From Spirochaetales bacterium (GTDB lineage: Bacteria; Spirochaetota; Spirochaetia; DSM-27196; Salinispiraceae), in assembly GCA_009991955.1 (NCBI GenBank), contig JAACWS010000014.1:1-64000 (forward strand): 64,000 nucleotides of DNA, read 5' to 3'. The notes beneath the pieces were generated by a model. The model ran no database searches, was not told the DNA's origin, and saw nothing but the letters and a program-made list of their open reading frames with translations. Positions 12,908 to 20,636 of this stretch are shown in pieces (position 1 is the first letter of the stretch; each line of letters begins with the position of its first letter). Position numbers and translations under genes: made by a program.

Positions 12908-14266
12908 CTAGGACTTGGAAGCCTTCTTGGCTGCTTCTTCTGTTTCCTTTCGTCGTTGTTCGGCCATCTCTTTTACGTTCTTCGCAAAGTCCGGATACCG
13001 GGACAAAATTCGCTCGAAGGTAGTCTTATTCAACGAATAAAGATCGCAGTAGTCCTTGGCCTTAATGGTAGCTGTTCGGGGAGTACTTAAGAGGAGGGCA
13101 ATTTCGCCAAAAAAGGCCCCTTCCTGCAAGGTAGCAAAGACAATCGATTCGTCCTCCGAAACTACATCTACCGAGCCTCGGCTGATAAAGAACATCTCTT
13201 CGCCAATTTCTCCTTTACGGACAACATAATCGCCAGGAGTAAATACAACCGATACCATGTTCAAAATAAGGTCTCGAATGAATGCCGAACTAGCGCCGGC
13301 GAATAAAGGAACCTTTGCAATTATCTCCCGATGGAGCTCGGTAGCAACCTGTATTCGTAGGCTAAAGGGAAGCTCGTCGACTACCGAGGATTCGTCATAT
13401 CCCCGTCGGCTTTCCCAAAGATAGTCGTAGTAATCGTTAATTCGTTTAGTAAGGTTTTCCGGCATATTGCGATACTTGAGGAAGGTGTTAATTTTTTCCA
13501 TCTTTTCCCGATACTGGGTCTTCGCAATGTCTATGTTCGCAATAACTGTCGAAATATTACCAATTACAAAACCGTACATACCTACCCCAACCAATTGGGT
13601 TATGATTACATAGATGAGCTGGAGGGTATTTGTCCTGTCCGGAGTTATATCTCCGTACCCGACGGTCGCGACGGTTGTTATTGTCCAGTAAAAAGATTGT
13701 AAGTACCGAGTGGCCGACGGTAAGTCGGGGCTCACTCCTTCGACCATAATAAAACCGCAGGCGATAATATGCGAAGCCATAAGTAGCCAAAAAATCATGA
13801 GCACTAGACGAAGTACGTTGGGGTTAAACTGCGATTTTTTTACCCGAGATAAACTTCGGGCGCCGGAAAAGAGTTTTATAATTCGTATCATCCGAGCAAA
13901 ACGAACGATCCTATTAATCGCCAAGAATTGAACACCGGTGAACATGAAAAACGGAAAAGCGGCGAGTAGATCCAATGCAAACCATCCCTGGAGATAGGCC
14001 CTACGAATACTTTGAGGATCTAAAACAACCTTCCGCCTTTCGACAATTCCCGTATGGAGAATGACAACTATATCCGTCACAAAAATAACGGTGACCAGAA
14101 TATCAAAAACTAAGAGGATACCTTTCGACTCCAGTTCCAAGGCAATGGTAAGGGGAGCAAGGACTGTGGCAATAACGACGAAAACCAGGACGAGAGCATC
14201 CCAACGGACTTTCCAGGGGTTGTCGGGGTCAAGGATCGGTAAGGTATGATTTTTTTGGGTAGACAT
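12908..14266 (-). CDS. Cyclic-nucleotide-gated K+ channel, SthK-like
   Basis: About 452 residues. Six membrane helices precede and follow a pore with the K+ selectivity filter TVGYGD (residues 201-206). S4 (about 116-140) carries regularly spaced Arg/Lys (NRIVRFARMIRIIK). After S6 comes a C-linker (YDYLWESRRGYDE) and a cyclic-nucleotide-binding domain whose phosphate cassette reads GEIALLLSTPRTAT (387-400). Order and wording match SthK of Spirochaeta thermophila closely, including YWTITT before the filter and AKVPLF at the start of the CNBD. It should open on cAMP binding and conduct K+ across the inner membrane. ATG 14266 is preferred because AAAAGGAA precedes it; an ATG seven codons earlier would place that site inside the gene. 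The tail is a charged helix. Confidence 0.93.
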   Translation of the reverse strand: MSTQKNHTLPILDPDNPWKVRWDALVLVFVVIATVLAPLTIALELESKGILLVFDILVTVIFVTDIVVILHTGIVERRKVVLDPQSIRRAYLQGWFALDLLAAFPFFMFTGVQFLAINRIVRFARMIRIIKLFSGARSLSRVKKSQFNPNVLRLVLMIFWLLMASHIIACGFIMVEGVSPDLPSATRYLQSFYWTITTVATVGYGDITPDRTNTLQLIYVIITQLVGVGMYGFVIGNISTVIANIDIAKTQYREKMEKINTFLKYRNMPENLTKRINDYYDYLWESRRGYDESSVVDELPFSLRIQVATELHREIIAKVPLFAGASSAFIRDLILNMVSVVFTPGDYVVRKGEIGEEMFFISRGSVDVVSEDESIVFATLQEGAFFGEIALLLSTPRTATIKAKDYCDLYSLNKTTFERILSRYPDFAKNVKEMAEQRRKETEEAAKKASKS

Positions 14267-14420
14267 CTCTGTTCCTTTTAGGGGCACCTCGATAGACTCC
14301 TTCCGATTAGATCTCTGGCGGGGCTTTTGGATCGCATTACTCAGGGGATCCGCTGGAAAGTATTTCGCTTGTAATTTTGATCCATTGAGGTCCCATGAGT
14401 TTGTTCTTCCAATTACGAGT

Positions 14421-15410
14421 TTAAGGTATGGCCCCCAAGAATTCTATCATTTTATTAACAAAGCTTTCGGTGTTTTCTGGCGATCGAATTTCCCCGGTAA
14501 GTACGTGGTAGCCCGGATCCGAGGAGGTAGGAACGCTAACCAACTCCTTTTCTTTAGCTCCCCATTCCTCGAAGAATTCAGTCGCTCGACGAACCGATAC
14601 AACCTGGTCAAAGGGACTGGAAAACTGCAGCAGAGGTACCTGAACTTCTGAATAATCGAGACCCGCCGCATAGGAAACTAGATTCATGAGCTCGGGTATT
14701 GCCCGGGAAGGATAACTGGATGTCCAGTAGCGGGCGTGCTGTTCGCTATAAGGTTCCCAGCTGTAGGTAGGTCCCATGACGAGGCTACCAATCTGTCTTC
14801 CCCAGGGCCCTGCGGTTAACCACGACAACTCATCGGACGGCCCCATATTGGGGCTCACGCCAATAACCGCTGTTATAAGTTCGGGAAACTGATGGGCAAG
14901 TATGGCCGCCAGGGTTACTCCGGTCGAAGTACCAATGAGAATCACCCTTTGACCCAAGACCCTCGCTATTGCAAGGGCCTCCAACCCATCAGCGTACCAA
15001 TCACCGGCGGTGGCCTGACCCATGGGTTCTCCGTCGATACTCCCGTGGCCGGTCAGACGGGGATAATAAAGATTCGCCCCCCGGGCCCGGGCTACCCGTT
15101 GGGGCACCGGATCTATTTCAACCGGGCTGGCACTAAAACCGTGAAGGTATACAACAACGTCGGCGGTTCGTTGGGGATCGTCTGGATTGTTCCAAAGAAT
15201 TTTCTTCTCCGTACCTGGCACAAGGGGTTGAGCAAGGGCTTCGGCCTGAGCGAGGTAGGATTCCAGAGCCGAAAAACTCTGGGGCACGGAGGGCAAATCC
15301 TGGGCTTCAGGAAAGGAAACTCGTGGGCCCAATAGGTATACCACAGCCAATAGACCGACCACGAGAACAATACCAAATAAAATCCGTCCAAAAGTTCTTC
15401 CCAGGTTCAT
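14421..15410 (-). CDS. Membrane-anchored alpha/beta hydrolase
   Basis: 329 residues. One N-terminal helix (ILFGIVLVVGLLAVVYLLG) anchors or exports an alpha/beta-hydrolase domain. The oxyanion region VVVYLHGFSASP, nucleophile elbow GTSTG (serine in the middle), a late acid in SSPFDQVVS and a catalytic histidine near DPGYHVLTGE can be seen in order. Substrate is unknown; esterase or lipase-like activity on a cell-envelope compound is the simplest guess. It begins 12 bases after the CDP-alcohol phosphotransferase gene and has no strong ribosome site of its own, so the two are probably co-expressed. Confidence 0.8.
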   Translation of the reverse strand: MNLGRTFGRILFGIVLVVGLLAVVYLLGPRVSFPEAQDLPSVPQSFSALESYLAQAEALAQPLVPGTEKKILWNNPDDPQRTADVVVYLHGFSASPVEIDPVPQRVARARGANLYYPRLTGHGSIDGEPMGQATAGDWYADGLEALAIARVLGQRVILIGTSTGVTLAAILAHQFPELITAVIGVSPNMGPSDELSWLTAGPWGRQIGSLVMGPTYSWEPYSEQHARYWTSSYPSRAIPELMNLVSYAAGLDYSEVQVPLLQFSSPFDQVVSVRRATEFFEEWGAKEKELVSVPTSSDPGYHVLTGEIRSPENTESFVNKMIEFLGAIP

Positions 15411-15422
15411 ATATTGACCATC

Positions 15423-16031
15423 TTACTTCGCTTTTTTGGGCGAATCAAGGATGGTTCGAGCCCATATAAATCGTAGAACAATGGTGAGCATCACTAATCC
15501 GGTCATCGTCCAGGCAAGAATGGTAGCAACAGATGGAAAAATGAGCATTAGCGAAAGGAAAATAATTGATTCGAAACCCTCCACCAGCCCTTTAGGCATG
15601 GGCAGGGAGGTGAGGGCTTCGTCTTTGGCTAAGAGAGCCGAGAGATACATCCAACTCGCCGCATTTAGGTAAAAACTTGCTAAGAGGGCACCCAGGGCAA
15701 GCCAGCTAGAGGAATCACCTTGAAGGGACCAAAATACCCCCAAAGGCAACAAAGAATACACCAAGAAATCGGCCAGTATATCAAGGTACCCACCAAGGTC
15801 TGAATTCTTGCCGGTCAACCGAGCTACCGCCCCATCGAGTCCATCAGCGAGCCGATTTCCGAGCCAAAAGCCCAGAGCCAGGCCATAAAATCCCTGAAAA
15901 GCCCCGTATACCCCCACCAGGCCCAAACCCAATCCTCCAATCGTCAGCCCCGTGGGACCGAGGGGACTTAAGAGCCGGGCCAAGGGAAAAATGAGTCTGT
16001 CTTTTAGGGGGCGTAAAAGTTCATCGTACAA
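15423..16031 (-). CDS. ynjF: YnjF-like CDP-alcohol phosphatidyltransferase
   Basis: About 202 residues, a polytopic membrane enzyme. The full family signature DG-x2-AR-x8-G-x3-D-x3-D is present (DGAVARL...GGYLDILAD). These enzymes swap the CMP of CDP-diacylglycerol or CDP-alcohols for an alcohol. Length and helix pattern match E. coli YnjF, whose function is unknown, and in E. coli ynjF also lies beside ynjBCD, as here. TTG 16031 is chosen because AAGGA lies seven bases upstream and it gives the usual length; the open frame runs back to 16115 but would overlap the divergent ATPase gene. Confidence 0.85.
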   Translation of the reverse strand: MYDELLRPLKDRLIFPLARLLSPLGPTGLTIGGLGLGLVGVYGAFQGFYGLALGFWLGNRLADGLDGAVARLTGKNSDLGGYLDILADFLVYSLLPLGVFWSLQGDSSSWLALGALLASFYLNAASWMYLSALLAKDEALTSLPMPKGLVEGFESIIFLSLMLIFPSVATILAWTMTGLVMLTIVLRFIWARTILDSPKKAK

Positions 16032-16079
16032 AGAGTTTTCCTTCCCTCGGTGAGCATGTACTAGTATCTTTCCTCCAAC

Positions 16080-17060
16080 ATGGCCGCAACACAAAAGTTC
16101 TTGTATATACAGCAAGTTTCAAGGACCTATGGTACCACAAAAGCCCTCACCGATGTCACCTTTGCATTAGAAGAAGGAGAGTTTTTCTCCCTTATTGGTC
16201 CTTCGGGGGCCGGCAAGTCGACCTTACTTAGAATAATAGCGGGAATAGAAAAGCCTGACCGTGGGAGCTTCCGATTTTTAGACGACAAAAGACCGGACAA
16301 AAAGCCAGTTTTAGTATTTCAGGACTTCTGGCTCTTTCCGGGCATGACAATCGAAAAAAATATCGGTTTTGGACTCCGGGCCCGAAAAGTTGACTCACGG
16401 GAGATCCACCGAAGGGTGGGTGAACTCATCCTGGACTTTGGCTTGGCCGGAAAAGAAAAAATGTATCCCTCGCGCTTGTCGGCGGGTCAACAACAAAGGG
16501 TTGCTTTGGCTCGAGCCTTGGCTGTTCGTCCGCGACTTCTCCTACTGGACGAGCCTTTTGCCCATCTGGATCGAGAACTCAAGGGAGAAACGGCCGCATA
16601 CCTTCGTTGGGTCCACGACGAGTATAAACTAACAACCTTGGCGGTTACCCACGATCAAGACGAAGCTTTGGCGATGAGTGATCGAATAGGATTTTTATCC
16701 CAGGGTCGACTGAGACAAGTCGGAAGTCCCCTGGACCTTATTTATTCACCTAACGAAGAAGAAACCGCTCAGTTTTTTGGACCGTTGAACCGAATCTCCC
16801 CGTCTGTCCTCTGTCGCCCTCAAGATCTAGAAATTCGAACCCCAGCAATCGATGACGCCTCGGCCTTATCGGGTATCATTCGAAAAGCGACAATCCAGAC
16901 CAGGGGAGTGTTGTACCGGGTAGAGGTTGCAAATTCAACACTCCTTGTCTTCTCTCCTGGTCCAGTACTTTCCTGTGGAACGCCTGTTTCCCTTACCCTA
17001 AGAACCTACTATTCATTTTCCGACAATCCCCCAAAAAAAGAACGAGAGGTACCCCAATGA
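16080..17060 (+). CDS. ynjD: ABC importer ATPase (YnjD-like)
   Basis: 326 residues with Walker A GPSGAGKST, Q-loop VFQDFWLFPG, signature LSAGQQQR, Walker B LLLLDEPF and the switch histidine in AVTHDQDEAL, all intact. A C-terminal region of about 90 residues makes it longer than E. coli YnjD. It is first of a four-gene operon (ATPase, binding lipoprotein, two permeases) joined by ATGA/GTGA overlaps. The transported compound is unknown; sequence resemblance is to the thiamine/iron/spermidine branch. ATG 16080 has no ribosome site and faces the divergent YnjF-like gene 48 bases away, so the two share a promoter region. Confidence 0.86.
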   Translation: MAATQKFLYIQQVSRTYGTTKALTDVTFALEEGEFFSLIGPSGAGKSTLLRIIAGIEKPDRGSFRFLDDKRPDKKPVLVFQDFWLFPGMTIEKNIGFGLRARKVDSREIHRRVGELILDFGLAGKEKMYPSRLSAGQQQRVALARALAVRPRLLLLDEPFAHLDRELKGETAAYLRWVHDEYKLTTLAVTHDQDEALAMSDRIGFLSQGRLRQVGSPLDLIYSPNEEETAQFFGPLNRISPSVLCRPQDLEIRTPAIDDASALSGIIRKATIQTRGVLYRVEVANSTLLVFSPGPVLSCGTPVSLTLRTYYSFSDNPPKKEREVPQ

Positions 17061-18274
17061 GAACGCAAAGTGTTATGGTTTTCTTTTTTCTTTTCGCTTT
17101 ATTCGGATGTTCTAATTCCCCAGATTCCCAGGTTCTCGATTGGAACGAGGCCAGTTGGGAAGGTATCGTGGCCAAAGCCCGAGGTACTGAGGTGAGTTTT
17201 CATATGTGGGGGGGCTCTCAGGCAATTAATCAGTGGATCGATGAAGAAGTTGCCACCGGTCTTTACGAGGAATATGGTCTTCGATTACGTCGGGTTCCCA
17301 GTGAAGCGCCGGTCTTCGTAAACCGACTTATGACCGAAAAGGCGGCAGATAGAACGGTTGGATCGATCGATTTAATGTGGATTAATGGTGAAAACTTCCG
17401 CCGAGCCCGGGAGGCCGACATTTTGGCTGGGCCAGTTACCCCAGTCATGCCAAACTTTCGGAACTACGTCGACCCCTCCACCGCAGAGTTTGATTTTGGG
17501 TACCCGACCGAGGGTTTCGAAACACCCTACGGTCGAGCCCAGTTCGTCTTTGAGTACGACACCGCTATTACCGAATCTCCCCAGAGCTTTCGGGAACTTG
17601 GCCAATGGGTTCGACAGAATCCTGGCCGATTCACCTACCCTGAACCCCAGGACTTTACCGGCAATGCCTTCATTCGTCAGGCCTTTTTGGCCCTTACCGG
17701 GGGCCCTCAGCAGTACCTTGGGGGATGGGATGAAGAGCTCTACCGAAAAAAATCGCCAGCCCTATGGGACTACCTTCTAGACCTCTCCCCCTACCTTTGG
17801 CAGGAGGGAAGATCCTATCCTAAGGACCTGGCCTTCCTCGACACCCTGTTTGAAAACCAAGAGGTCTGGATAAACATGAGCTACACCCAAGCCCAGGTCC
17901 AAGCCCGAATATTGCAAGGTCGCTACCCCTCCACTGTTCGGAGTTTTCTTATGGAAGAGGGGAGTCTGTACAACACCCATTTTACCGCCATGGCGTACAA
18001 TGCTCCAAATCCAGCCGGAGCCTTGGTGCTCATGAATTATCTACTAGAACCGAAGATTCAGCGGGCTAAAAACGACCCCGCAACCTGGGGCGACTTTACC
18101 GTTCTTGACCTTAACCGGCTCTCTCTGGAGGATCGAACGGATTTTGAGACCCTCGATCTTGGTCCTGCCACCCTTCCCCTTGAGATACTCGAGGCCGGCG
18201 CTCAACCAGAAATTCCCAGTCCTTACCTAGAGGCCCTCCAGCGAGACTGGTACACCATTGTCTTGGGTCAATGA
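17057..18274 (+). CDS. ynjB: ABC substrate-binding lipoprotein (YnjB-like)
   Basis: 405 residues with a lipoprotein signal peptide ending ALFGC, so it would be tethered outside the inner membrane. Strong YnjB features are VSFHMWGGSQAINQWIDEEV, EKAADRTVGSIDLMWINGEN followed by FR, and the late NQEVWINMSYTQAQVQ. YnjB belongs to the same fold group as thiamine and iron binding proteins but its ligand is not established. The protein is the second gene, overlapping the ATPase stop and the first permease start by four bases each. The adjacent, divergent YnjF-like phosphotransferase suggests a ligand connected with phospholipid head groups, which is inference only. Confidence 0.9.
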   Translation: MRTQSVMVFFFLFALFGCSNSPDSQVLDWNEASWEGIVAKARGTEVSFHMWGGSQAINQWIDEEVATGLYEEYGLRLRRVPSEAPVFVNRLMTEKAADRTVGSIDLMWINGENFRRAREADILAGPVTPVMPNFRNYVDPSTAEFDFGYPTEGFETPYGRAQFVFEYDTAITESPQSFRELGQWVRQNPGRFTYPEPQDFTGNAFIRQAFLALTGGPQQYLGGWDEELYRKKSPALWDYLLDLSPYLWQEGRSYPKDLAFLDTLFENQEVWINMSYTQAQVQARILQGRYPSTVRSFLMEEGSLYNTHFTAMAYNAPNPAGALVLMNYLLEPKIQRAKNDPATWGDFTVLDLNRLSLEDRTDFETLDLGPATLPLEILEAGAQPEIPSPYLEALQRDWYTIVLGQ

Positions 18275-19104
18275 AGAATCGGCGACTCCTTCCCCCATGG
18301 ATTGCACTTTTGCCTGCTCTGGTTCCTCTGGTTTTCTTCCTAGGTTCGGCCCTGGTAATTACCCTCTGGGAGGCTCGTGGAGCCTTTATCCAGGTCTGGA
18401 ACACTCCAGGATTTAGAAACTCTCTCGTGTTCTCCGCCAGGGTTGGATTCTTATCCGCTAGCTTATCTACTTTCCTTGGCCTCATCCTTGGATTGGCAGT
18501 TGTCAAGCCCTTTGGCCAAAGAGGACGATGGTCTCAACTCCTCGATCCCCTTCTTTATCTTCCACTCGTATTGCCCCCCGTTGCTGTCGCATATCTGACG
18601 GTCTTTTGGCTAGGGAATACGGGAATGACAGCACGGTTCGCTGGATTTTTCGGCCTTGATTTCGCCTCGCCACTGTTTCGGGGCAATGGGTGGGGGGTAG
18701 TTTTGGCGTACGTTTACAAGGAAATTCCCTTCGGCCTTCTTTTTTTGGTTCCTGTCTTGCGAGCGTTTCCACGGGAATTAGTTTTCACAGCCCGGGGGTT
18801 AGGAGCTTCCCCGGGGATAGTATTCTGGACCCTCATGGTACCCCGACTGCTACCCGCCTTGGGAACGGTGTTTCTCATCCTCTTTATTTTTACCTTTGGG
18901 GCCTACGATATACCCTTTGTGGTCGGCGAGAGTTCCCCGTCCATGGTCAGTCAGTATCTGTACAGGGCCTATTTCGTGGCTCCCTTGGATCAAAGGCCCC
19001 TTGCTTCTGGGGGCTTGGTAATCCTCTTTCTTCTGAGTCTCGGAACGGTGGTAGGGTATTCCTATCTTGCTGGCTCTTTGGACGAAAAAGAGAGAACCCT
19101 GTGA
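18271..19104 (+). CDS. ynjC: ABC importer permease (YnjC N-half)
   Basis: 277 residues, one BPD-type permease domain with about six helices. The N-terminal helix starts LLPPWIALLPALVPLVFFLG; the EAA-like loop facing the ATPase is around ARGLGASPGIVFWTLMVPRL. E. coli YnjC is one long protein of two such domains; here the two halves are separate genes that overlap by four bases (GTGA at 19101-19104). The ATG overlaps the TGA of the binding protein gene. It would form the channel together with the next gene product. Confidence 0.85.
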   Translation: MKNRRLLPPWIALLPALVPLVFFLGSALVITLWEARGAFIQVWNTPGFRNSLVFSARVGFLSASLSTFLGLILGLAVVKPFGQRGRWSQLLDPLLYLPLVLPPVAVAYLTVFWLGNTGMTARFAGFFGLDFASPLFRGNGWGVVLAYVYKEIPFGLLFLVPVLRAFPRELVFTARGLGASPGIVFWTLMVPRLLPALGTVFLILFIFTFGAYDIPFVVGESSPSMVSQYLYRAYFVAPLDQRPLASGGLVILFLLSLGTVVGYSYLAGSLDEKERTL

Positions 19105-19859
19105 GGGTTATCCGCCTAGTTACCCTTGTTTTTATTCTCCTACCTCTGGTGTTTCTTGGGGTATCTCTTTTTGCCGGTCCCTGGCCATATCCCCTTCTAC
19201 TTCCGTCCGAATGGTCTTTAAGAAGCCTTTCGTTCCTCTGGCGTTCGAGGGAAGGTTTAATCCGGGCTCTGGGATCTTCCTTGGCCTACTCGTTTCTATC
19301 GGTCATATTCGCTACCCTCTTGTCGTGGGCTCCAGCTCGTTACTTAGCCAGGCATTCGTTTCGCGGAAAAGCTCTGGTGGAAGGTTTACTTTTAGCCCCG
19401 GCTATTATTCCTTCAATTACCTTCGCCGCTGGGCTTTACCGGGTTGTTCTTTTCGTCGGTCTCTCGGATACCCTTGTTGGTGTAGCCCTTTCGCTCTCAC
19501 TCACCGGCTATCCTTATCTACTACGAAGCCTAAAAATTGGGTATCTTCTTTACCCAATGGAGTATACGAACGCGGCGAAGAATCTGGGGGCCTCAAGATG
19601 GCAACAATGGTGGGAGGTCGAGGTTCCGGCCATGATTCCGGCCCTTGCTTCTGGGGTAAGTTTGGTATTTCTCACGGCGTTTTCGGAGTATTTTTTGGTA
19701 TTTCTTATCGGTGGTGGAAGGGTAGAGAGCTTTGCGGGCTATCTGGTACCCTTTATTCAGGCTTCCGACCGGGGTATGGCTGCGGGTCTCACCCTAGGAT
19801 TTCTGGTTGTGCCTTTAGGCTTGTTTGGACTACAAGAACTCTATCTTCGTCGTCGTTAA
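19101..19859 (+). CDS. ynjC: ABC importer permease (YnjC C-half)
   Basis: 252 residues, second BPD-type permease. About six hydrophobic helices, beginning RLVTLVFILLPLVFLGVSLF; the EAA-like loop is AKNLGASRWQQWWEVEVP. The GTG at 19101 overlaps the previous stop and is the only start that fits; the frame is open much further upstream but only as a shadow of the previous permease. It pairs with the first permease to complete the YnjDBC-type importer. The operon may continue into the hydrolase gene 12 bases further on. Confidence 0.85.
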   Translation: MRVIRLVTLVFILLPLVFLGVSLFAGPWPYPLLLPSEWSLRSLSFLWRSREGLIRALGSSLAYSFLSVIFATLLSWAPARYLARHSFRGKALVEGLLLAPAIIPSITFAAGLYRVVLFVGLSDTLVGVALSLSLTGYPYLLRSLKIGYLLYPMEYTNAAKNLGASRWQQWWEVEVPAMIPALASGVSLVFLTAFSEYFLVFLIGGGRVESFAGYLVPFIQASDRGMAAGLTLGFLVVPLGLFGLQELYLRRR

Positions 19860-19871
19860 GGAGGGCTTCGA

Positions 19872-20636
19872 ATGAAACGGCTGCTTCGAATCGTACTTTT
19901 TGGCACTCTTGGTCTCCTGGTCTTAAGTGGTGGTGGTTTTGTCCTTTGGGCACTGCAAGCCCTTGGACCGGGTCCCCAAGCTATCGAGTCTCTTCAAAGT
20001 GATTCGGACATTACAATCGAGACCAATGACCAAAATTGGGTACTTTTTCGGCCAAATCGAGAACAATCAGACCTACCGGGCTTTATCTTTTATCCCGGTG
20101 GGAAAGTTGACTACCGATCCTACGCCCCAGTACTTCGAAAAATCGCCCAAGAAGGTATTTTTGTCGTTTTGGTACCCGCTCCCTTGAATCTCATGATACT
20201 GGGATCGAATCGTGCCCAGAAGGTAATCGATGCCTTTCCCGACCGATCGTGGGTCATAGGCGGCCATAGCCTAGGTGCTGCGGTCGCAGGATTCTTTGGG
20301 TATAATAATCCTGAACTTCTCAATGATGGACCCATTAAAGGTCTCGTTCTTTGGGCAGGTTATTTGTCTTCGGGATGGGATTTGTCGACTACAACCCTTC
20401 CAGTCCTATCAATACGAGCGGAGAACGACCAGGTTTTTAACCAGGAAAACTTCGAGGCAGGCCAGGCGCTGCTGCCCCGGGGGTGGGTCGACCGGGAAAT
20501 CGCCGGAGGAAACCACGCGGGTTTTGGCGATTACGGACCCCAGCCCGGTGATGGTCAGGCATCGATACCCCAAGAAGAACAGTGGACTGTGATTGCTGGG
20601 TGGACGGCTGAGTTCTTCCAGAACCTCGGACCTTGA
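19872..20636 (+). CDS. Membrane-anchored alpha/beta hydrolase (hydrolase_5 type)
   Basis: 254 residues. A single N-terminal helix (LLRIVLFGTLGLLVLSGGGF) precedes an alpha/beta-hydrolase with FIFYPGGKVDYRSYAP, the nucleophile elbow GGHSLGAA, an acid in IRAENDQVF and a histidine in AGGNHAGFGDYGPQPGDG. The wording of the last motif is typical of the dienelactone-hydrolase-like hydrolase_5 group. Starting 12 bases after the last permease gene with AAGGAGGG as ribosome site, it is probably the last gene of the YnjDBC-type operon. It is the second anchored hydrolase in this neighbourhood (the other is at 14421-15410). Substrate unknown. Confidence 0.83.
   Translation: MKRLLRIVLFGTLGLLVLSGGGFVLWALQALGPGPQAIESLQSDSDITIETNDQNWVLFRPNREQSDLPGFIFYPGGKVDYRSYAPVLRKIAQEGIFVVLVPAPLNLMILGSNRAQKVIDAFPDRSWVIGGHSLGAAVAGFFGYNNPELLNDGPIKGLVLWAGYLSSGWDLSTTTLPVLSIRAENDQVFNQENFEAGQALLPRGWVDREIAGGNHAGFGDYGPQPGDGQASIPQEEQWTVIAGWTAEFFQNLGP

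Follow-up and report, generated by a model that had tools for sequence, protein, structure and literature searches.

The closest described relative of the locus studied here is in Escherichia coli, where the genes for an ABC importer, YnjBCD, lie within a few kilobases of ynjF, a gene for a CDP-alcohol phosphotransferase (ydjXYZ-ynjABCDE/ynjF; NC_000913, b1750-b1758). The importer has been termed uncharacterized (PMC9207381), and we found no paper, in the literature searched, that gives a function for YnjF. The E. coli region also encodes two DedA-family proteins, YdjX and YdjZ. Because ynjF is on the opposite strand and convergent to ydjXYZ-ynjABCDE, the association in E. coli is one of proximity and not of a shared operon.

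Other relatives have known roles. For the importer, these are the PotABCD, Phn, ThiBPQ, and Fbp types (for polyamines, aminoethylphosphonate, thiamine, and iron), which share the fold of YnjB and the families of the ATPase and the permeases. For YnjF, they are PIPS/PgsA1 and the choline/ethanolamine phosphotransferases of the Kennedy pathway (CEPT1); the latter share the superfamily motif with YnjF and likewise join an alcohol to a lipid.

A spirochaetal locus with YnjBCD and YnjF

We analyzed a 64,000-nucleotide stretch of a Spirochaetales genome (the window). A first-pass annotation had described a YnjF-like CDP-alcohol phosphotransferase divergent from an importer with a YnjB-like binding protein and had pointed to the clustering of the same families in E. 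coli; all of the named genes are present in the window as described, and the comparison with E. coli is correct as a matter of proximity. On the minus strand, ynjF (15423-16031) is followed, 12 bp downstream, by a gene for an alpha/beta hydrolase of the Hydrolase_4/S33 type (hydrolase 1, 14421-15410; PF12146, 1.9e-12). The longest open reading frame for ynjF overlaps ynjD; the alignment and an upstream GGAAGG favor a TTG start at 16031, which leaves 48 bp (16032-16079) between the divergent start codons of the two genes. No sigma-70 consensus scored inside this gap, and a promoter scan of the region matched the expectation from shuffled sequence. On the plus strand, ynjD (16080-17060; ABC ATPase, PF00005, 5.6e-31), ynjB (17057-18274), and two separate permease genes that are equivalent to ynjC (18271-19104 and 19101-19859; BPD_transp_1, PF00528, 7.3e-11 and 6e-12) form an operon with overlapping reading frames: the start of permease 1 overlaps the end of ynjB, and the GTG start of permease 2 overlaps the stop codon of permease 1. 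With an ATPase and two permease domains, this is a YnjBCD transporter. A second alpha/beta hydrolase gene (hydrolase 2, 19872-20636; Abhydrolase_5, PF12695, 2.5e-45) begins 12 bp after permease 2. Both hydrolases appear, from a reading of the sequence, to have a hydrophobic stretch at the N terminus. A cyclic-nucleotide-gated ion channel (Ion_trans and cNMP_binding; 12908-14272) adjoins hydrolase 1.

The layout differs from that in E. coli: ynjF is divergent from ynjD, ydjXYZ, ynjA, and ynjE are locally absent, and the two hydrolases are present. Also, E. coli YnjC is a single fused protein of 511 amino acids, whose C-terminal half aligns with permease 2, and the YnjD of the window has a C-terminal extension that E. 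coli YnjD lacks.

YnjB, which has a lipoprotein-like N terminus (LFGCS), scores 467 bits against NF008633/PRK11622 (cut-off, 203 bits) over residues 9-399 of 405, and its identity to E. coli YnjB is 36% across 373 amino acids. YnjD is 34% identical to its E. coli counterpart, and its motifs are intact (Walker A, GPSGAGKST; signature, LSAGQQQR; Walker B, LLLLDEP). Its best NCBIfam model is PhnT2, at 250 bits and below the cut-off. Unlike the Pot, Phn, Thi, and Fbp importers, YnjB belongs to a separate curated subfamily, NF008633, and neither the ATPase nor the permeases of the window exceed the cut-off of any listed equivalog model.

The predicted model of YnjB (pLDDT, 92.9) has a periplasmic-binding-protein fold. 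Foldseek ranked STM0429 (4r6y) first, followed by polyamine binders, and VIA-align gave a tie between a sugar binder (Z, 28.1; rmsd, 3.0; 331 aligned) and 4r6y (Z, 27.6; rmsd, 2.5; 300 aligned). These matches of a predicted model, which span binders of sugars, polyamines, iron, and thiamine, indicate a fold and not a ligand. By sequence, YnjB comes closest among solved proteins to polyamine binders, but at no better than 3e-5 in a weak and short alignment, in which the PotD segment FWMDSLAIP is not conserved; for this comparison we used the residues that we take to form the polyamine pocket of PotD.

The YnjF of the window shares 36% identity with its E. coli counterpart across 197 amino acids (E = 6e-19), and it falls in a YnjF clade (support, 0.904) that is separate from the organism's own PgsA-like, C60b, and C20 paralogues and from E. 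coli PgsA. It scores 209 bits against our YnjF alignment model (A4), which includes the sequence from the window as a row. The motif DGLDGAVAR..GGYLDILAD is intact and matches the superfamily motif DxxDGxxAR(x8)GxxxDxxxD, whose key residues are invariant in an alignment of 24 YnjF sequences. In PIPS, R195 binds phosphate, and S132, K135, and R155 are also inositol-phosphate residues. The best solved relatives in a profile search were PIPS (1.6e-17) and DIPPS, and the predicted model of YnjF (pLDDT, 90.6) was closest to PIPS as well (6h59/6h5a; TM, 0.72-0.74; PIPS/PgsA1 is also represented by 5d92). The match to CEPT1 was weaker in both profile and fold (TM, 0.58), and we identified no cytidylyltransferase gene next to ynjF. 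However, in the profile alignment only the equivalent of R195 is conserved in YnjF: the position of R155 is S, T, or G, and S132 and K135 are unmatched. YnjF has instead a conserved G-L-x-E-x-x-E segment, in which both glutamates are invariant across the 24 sequences. Because R155 is replaced and the other two residues are unmatched, we do not predict the acceptor of YnjF; inositol phosphate was considered and rejected.

Linkage and neighborhood of YnjF and YnjB

The first-pass annotation proposed that YnjF and YnjBCD share a task. We ran a family model for YnjB and model A4 for YnjF over the same sets of genomes; we did not use PF01066 as the probe because nearly every genome contains members of it. 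Among 249 genomes of the Bacillales (the order of genome G296), YnjB was over the cut-off in 81, YnjF in 79, and both in 79. In other words, YnjF was found in 79 of 81 genomes with YnjB and in 0 of 168 others (Fisher's test, 1.6e-63, ignoring kinship). The two genes were within 10 kb of each other in 71 of the 79 pairs, and eight genomes keep both at a large distance or on separate contigs; such retention without adjacency argues for selection. Among 296 genomes of Spirochaetota, YnjB was over the cut-off in just 7 and YnjF in 11: all 7 genomes with YnjB contain YnjF, versus 4 of the 289 without it (Fisher's test, 9e-12, again ignoring kinship). Five spirochaete families have both genes. The four spirochaetes with YnjF alone imply that the substrate of YnjF need not come via YnjB. 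Since the rows of A4 include the window and several YnjF sequences of Bacillota and Spirochaetota from YnjB loci, divergent YnjF proteins that are not linked to YnjB could be under-detected; the gap between members and non-members in Spirochaetota (137 versus 81 bits) argues against a large effect.

We also examined 86 fetched YnjB loci. YnjF lies within 10 kb in at least 44 of them (by tblastn at 60 bits; clustering of the neighboring ORFs found 42), from Bacillota, Spirochaetota, Chloroflexota, Actinomycetota, and E. coli. The 80-locus collection was picked by similarity to YnjB, so proportions among these loci are not population frequencies. The gene order varies, with divergent, convergent, and co-directional arrangements; the divergent ynjF/ynjD layout of the window is shared with L037, which is from the same family, and L049. 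Overall, we are confident that the linkage is real, and the co-occurrence in two phyla supports the proposed joint task well: YnjF and YnjBCD very probably serve one function.

Besides YnjF, the main non-transporter families near YnjB are DedA (42 loci) and a MerA-like flavoprotein (36 loci). DedA shares a locus with YnjF in 36 cases (22.5 expected) and the flavoprotein in 31 (18.4 expected). In two spirochaetes that lack YnjB, G073 (with DedA and DUF547) and G051, the MerA-like gene still adjoins ynjF. The window contains a spirochaetal copy of a unit that crosses phyla and consists of YnjB, YnjC, YnjD, and YnjF, usually with DedA (of the YdjX/YdjZ type) and the MerA-like flavoprotein. The families of the components are known, but the multi-gene unit appears to be undescribed in the literature that we searched, in which no paper joined DedA, mercuric reductase, and CDP-alcohol phosphatidyltransferase. 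We considered and rejected mercuric reductase as the identity of the flavoprotein: a member from L066 scores 343.8 bits against TIGR02053 (cut-off, 454), and the C-terminal CC pair of mercuric reductase is absent from the three members that we read at full length (L054_13, L066_14, and L092_15). Near YnjDBCC in another locus, a 713-amino-acid ORF (L048:3885-6026) is an apparent natural fusion of DedA and the MerA-like protein.

The window's organism seems to have the wider unit in two separate pieces: another contig (C15; L128, 3718-9675) carries a run of genes for DUF547, GlsA-like and GlsB-like acyltransferases, DUF3179, the MerA-like protein, and DedA. Other spirochaete loci additionally carry DUF547, DUF3047, FA_hydroxylase, and GlsB-like genes, and in L037 and L066 an OlsE-like fatty acid hydroxylase adjoins either ynjF or ynjD. 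Together, these neighbors point to lipid metabolism as the context in spirochaetes. The GlsA- and GlsB-like proteins, which are acyltransferases of the glycine-lipid type, are below the cut-offs of the equivalog models, so synthesis of an aminolipid is suggested but not established.

The idea that the two hydrolases release the substrate did not hold up as a general feature of the unit, and we consider it unlikely. Neither hydrolase has a homolog in the 86 other YnjB loci. In the related genomes for which we retrieved wider sequence around the homologs, those of both hydrolases are away from YnjF and YnjB; hydrolase 2 has homologs in 10 of 60 relatives (in G203, about 460 kb from that genome's YnjB). 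Hydrolase 1 is lineage specific, and neither hydrolase is a conserved part of the module. Because they are just 12 bp behind ynjF and permease 2, a local role in the window's organism is possible.

What the unit might do

The mechanism that we favor, at a probability of roughly 40% for the whole, is import followed by lipidation. YnjB would capture a small solute that bears a hydroxyl group, and, judging from its family, the ABC importer would move it to the cytoplasm. There, YnjF would join the imported alcohol, or an alcohol derived from the solute, to a phospholipid; given that PIPS is closest in fold and sequence, the donor would most likely be CDP-diacylglycerol. DedA may then shift the lipid product between leaflets, as suggested by published activities of DedA proteins (PMC10127716). 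Uptake of an alcohol and its attachment to a lipid, as first proposed, is compatible with our data. If so, a phospholipid would be built from an imported compound, and the poorly understood DedA proteins of the YdjX/YdjZ type would have a candidate substrate. In any case, the near-obligate co-inheritance across phyla gives ynjB, ynjC, ynjD, ynjF, and ydjX/ydjZ of E. coli, whose functions are unknown, one common and testable hypothesis.

Simple attachment of a headgroup does not explain the flavoprotein, rhodanese, YdjY, and selenium-type neighbors, which suggest redox or chalcogen chemistry. Perhaps the unit is an envelope module for such chemistry (with sulfur, selenium, or arsenic), in which the compound brought in by YnjBCD, of a sulfur, selenium, or nucleoside type, serves the flavoprotein, the rhodanese, and enzymes related to them. 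YnjF and DedA would then tune the membrane lipids, and the imported solute would not be the substrate of YnjF. This is a tentative alternative, which could account for the 36 loci with the flavoprotein, for a cluster of oxidoreductases similar to TIGR03169 (Nterm_to_SelD) in 24 loci (the one tested member scored 272 bits; cut-off, 310), and for several loci that have YdjY and rhodaneses similar to YnjE. Also, L106 contains YedE-type, NF045663 ("near Sec"), and TIGR04282/TIGR04283 genes, L082 carries the same clusters, L042 carries the TIGR04282/TIGR04283 clusters, and four loci contain UGA-containing PrdB-like genes. A screen of genetic interactions in E. coli placed ynjABCDEFI in a group with Suf genes (PMC3930520), and the same species has an FNR site at ydjXYZ-ynjABCD (PMC3688515). 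However, selenium- or arsenic-type neighbors are found in few loci, and in neither the window nor the fetched region of C15; the MerA-like proteins that were read lack the cysteine pair; and such a module would not by itself explain why YnjF nearly always accompanies YnjB. A literature search for arsenosugars found nothing relevant.

The PrdB-like genes (L067:8988-9779, L069:8957-9742, L072:8975-9772, and L077:14763-15497) are near YnjBCD and YnjF in Bacillus-type genomes, and each has one conserved in-frame TGA (NPG-U-YICHQS), which is likely a selenocysteine codon.

If YnjF instead used an endogenous alcohol, then YnjBCD might recover that headgroup, or a breakdown product of it, from outside the cell. 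Such recycling would account both for the near-obligate presence of YnjF with YnjB and for the four spirochaetes with YnjF alone, in some of which the core of YnjF and the MerA-like protein persists without YnjBCD; and in the window's organism, the anchored hydrolases behind each operon could free the headgroups. We consider it unlikely, as YnjF was never seen without YnjBCD in the Bacillales sample and the hydrolases are not conserved. Finally, it is very improbable that the genes share no function and are linked only as passengers of a mobile or ancient island: their distribution in Spirochaetota is patchy (7 of 296 genomes) and our counts ignore phylogeny, but gene order and orientation vary both between and within phyla, and both genes persist in the five spirochaete families and in the eight Bacillales genomes where they are not adjacent.

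YnjBCD loci with other partners

Where YnjF is absent, YnjBCD is often paired with a different enzyme that acts on hydroxyl or ribosyl groups: an APH-family kinase in 11 loci (mainly from Desulfobacterota, and commonly encoded immediately upstream of ynjD) or a nucleoside hydrolase in 13. No locus with YnjF contains either of them (0 observed for each, versus 5.6 and 6.7 expected). The split between kinase and YnjF is confounded with phylum, and one genome (G119) contains both; the separation of nucleoside hydrolase from YnjF is also seen within Chloroflexota and within Actinomycetota, in few loci. Among YnjB positions that are at least 85% conserved in each of the three types of loci, 32 polar or aromatic positions are identical across the types, which is compatible, at the level of sequence, with a single class of ligand.

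More speculatively, YnjBCD, YnjF, DedA, and the MerA-like protein might form an unrecognized salvage pathway for one imported hydroxylated compound, possibly similar to a ribosyl compound or a nucleoside, that is linked to selenium or arsenic metabolism in some lineages. The compound would be alternatively hydrolyzed, phosphorylated, or, via YnjF, incorporated into phospholipids of a new class, which DedA would flip. We view this broader scheme as rather improbable.

A trio of TIGR04283, TIGR04282, and APH kinase genes is beside YnjBCD in three distant lineages (L042:551-2865, L082:14262-17053, and L106:13931-16291); the two TIGRFam assignments were confirmed for L042 and L106, and those for L082 were made by cluster.
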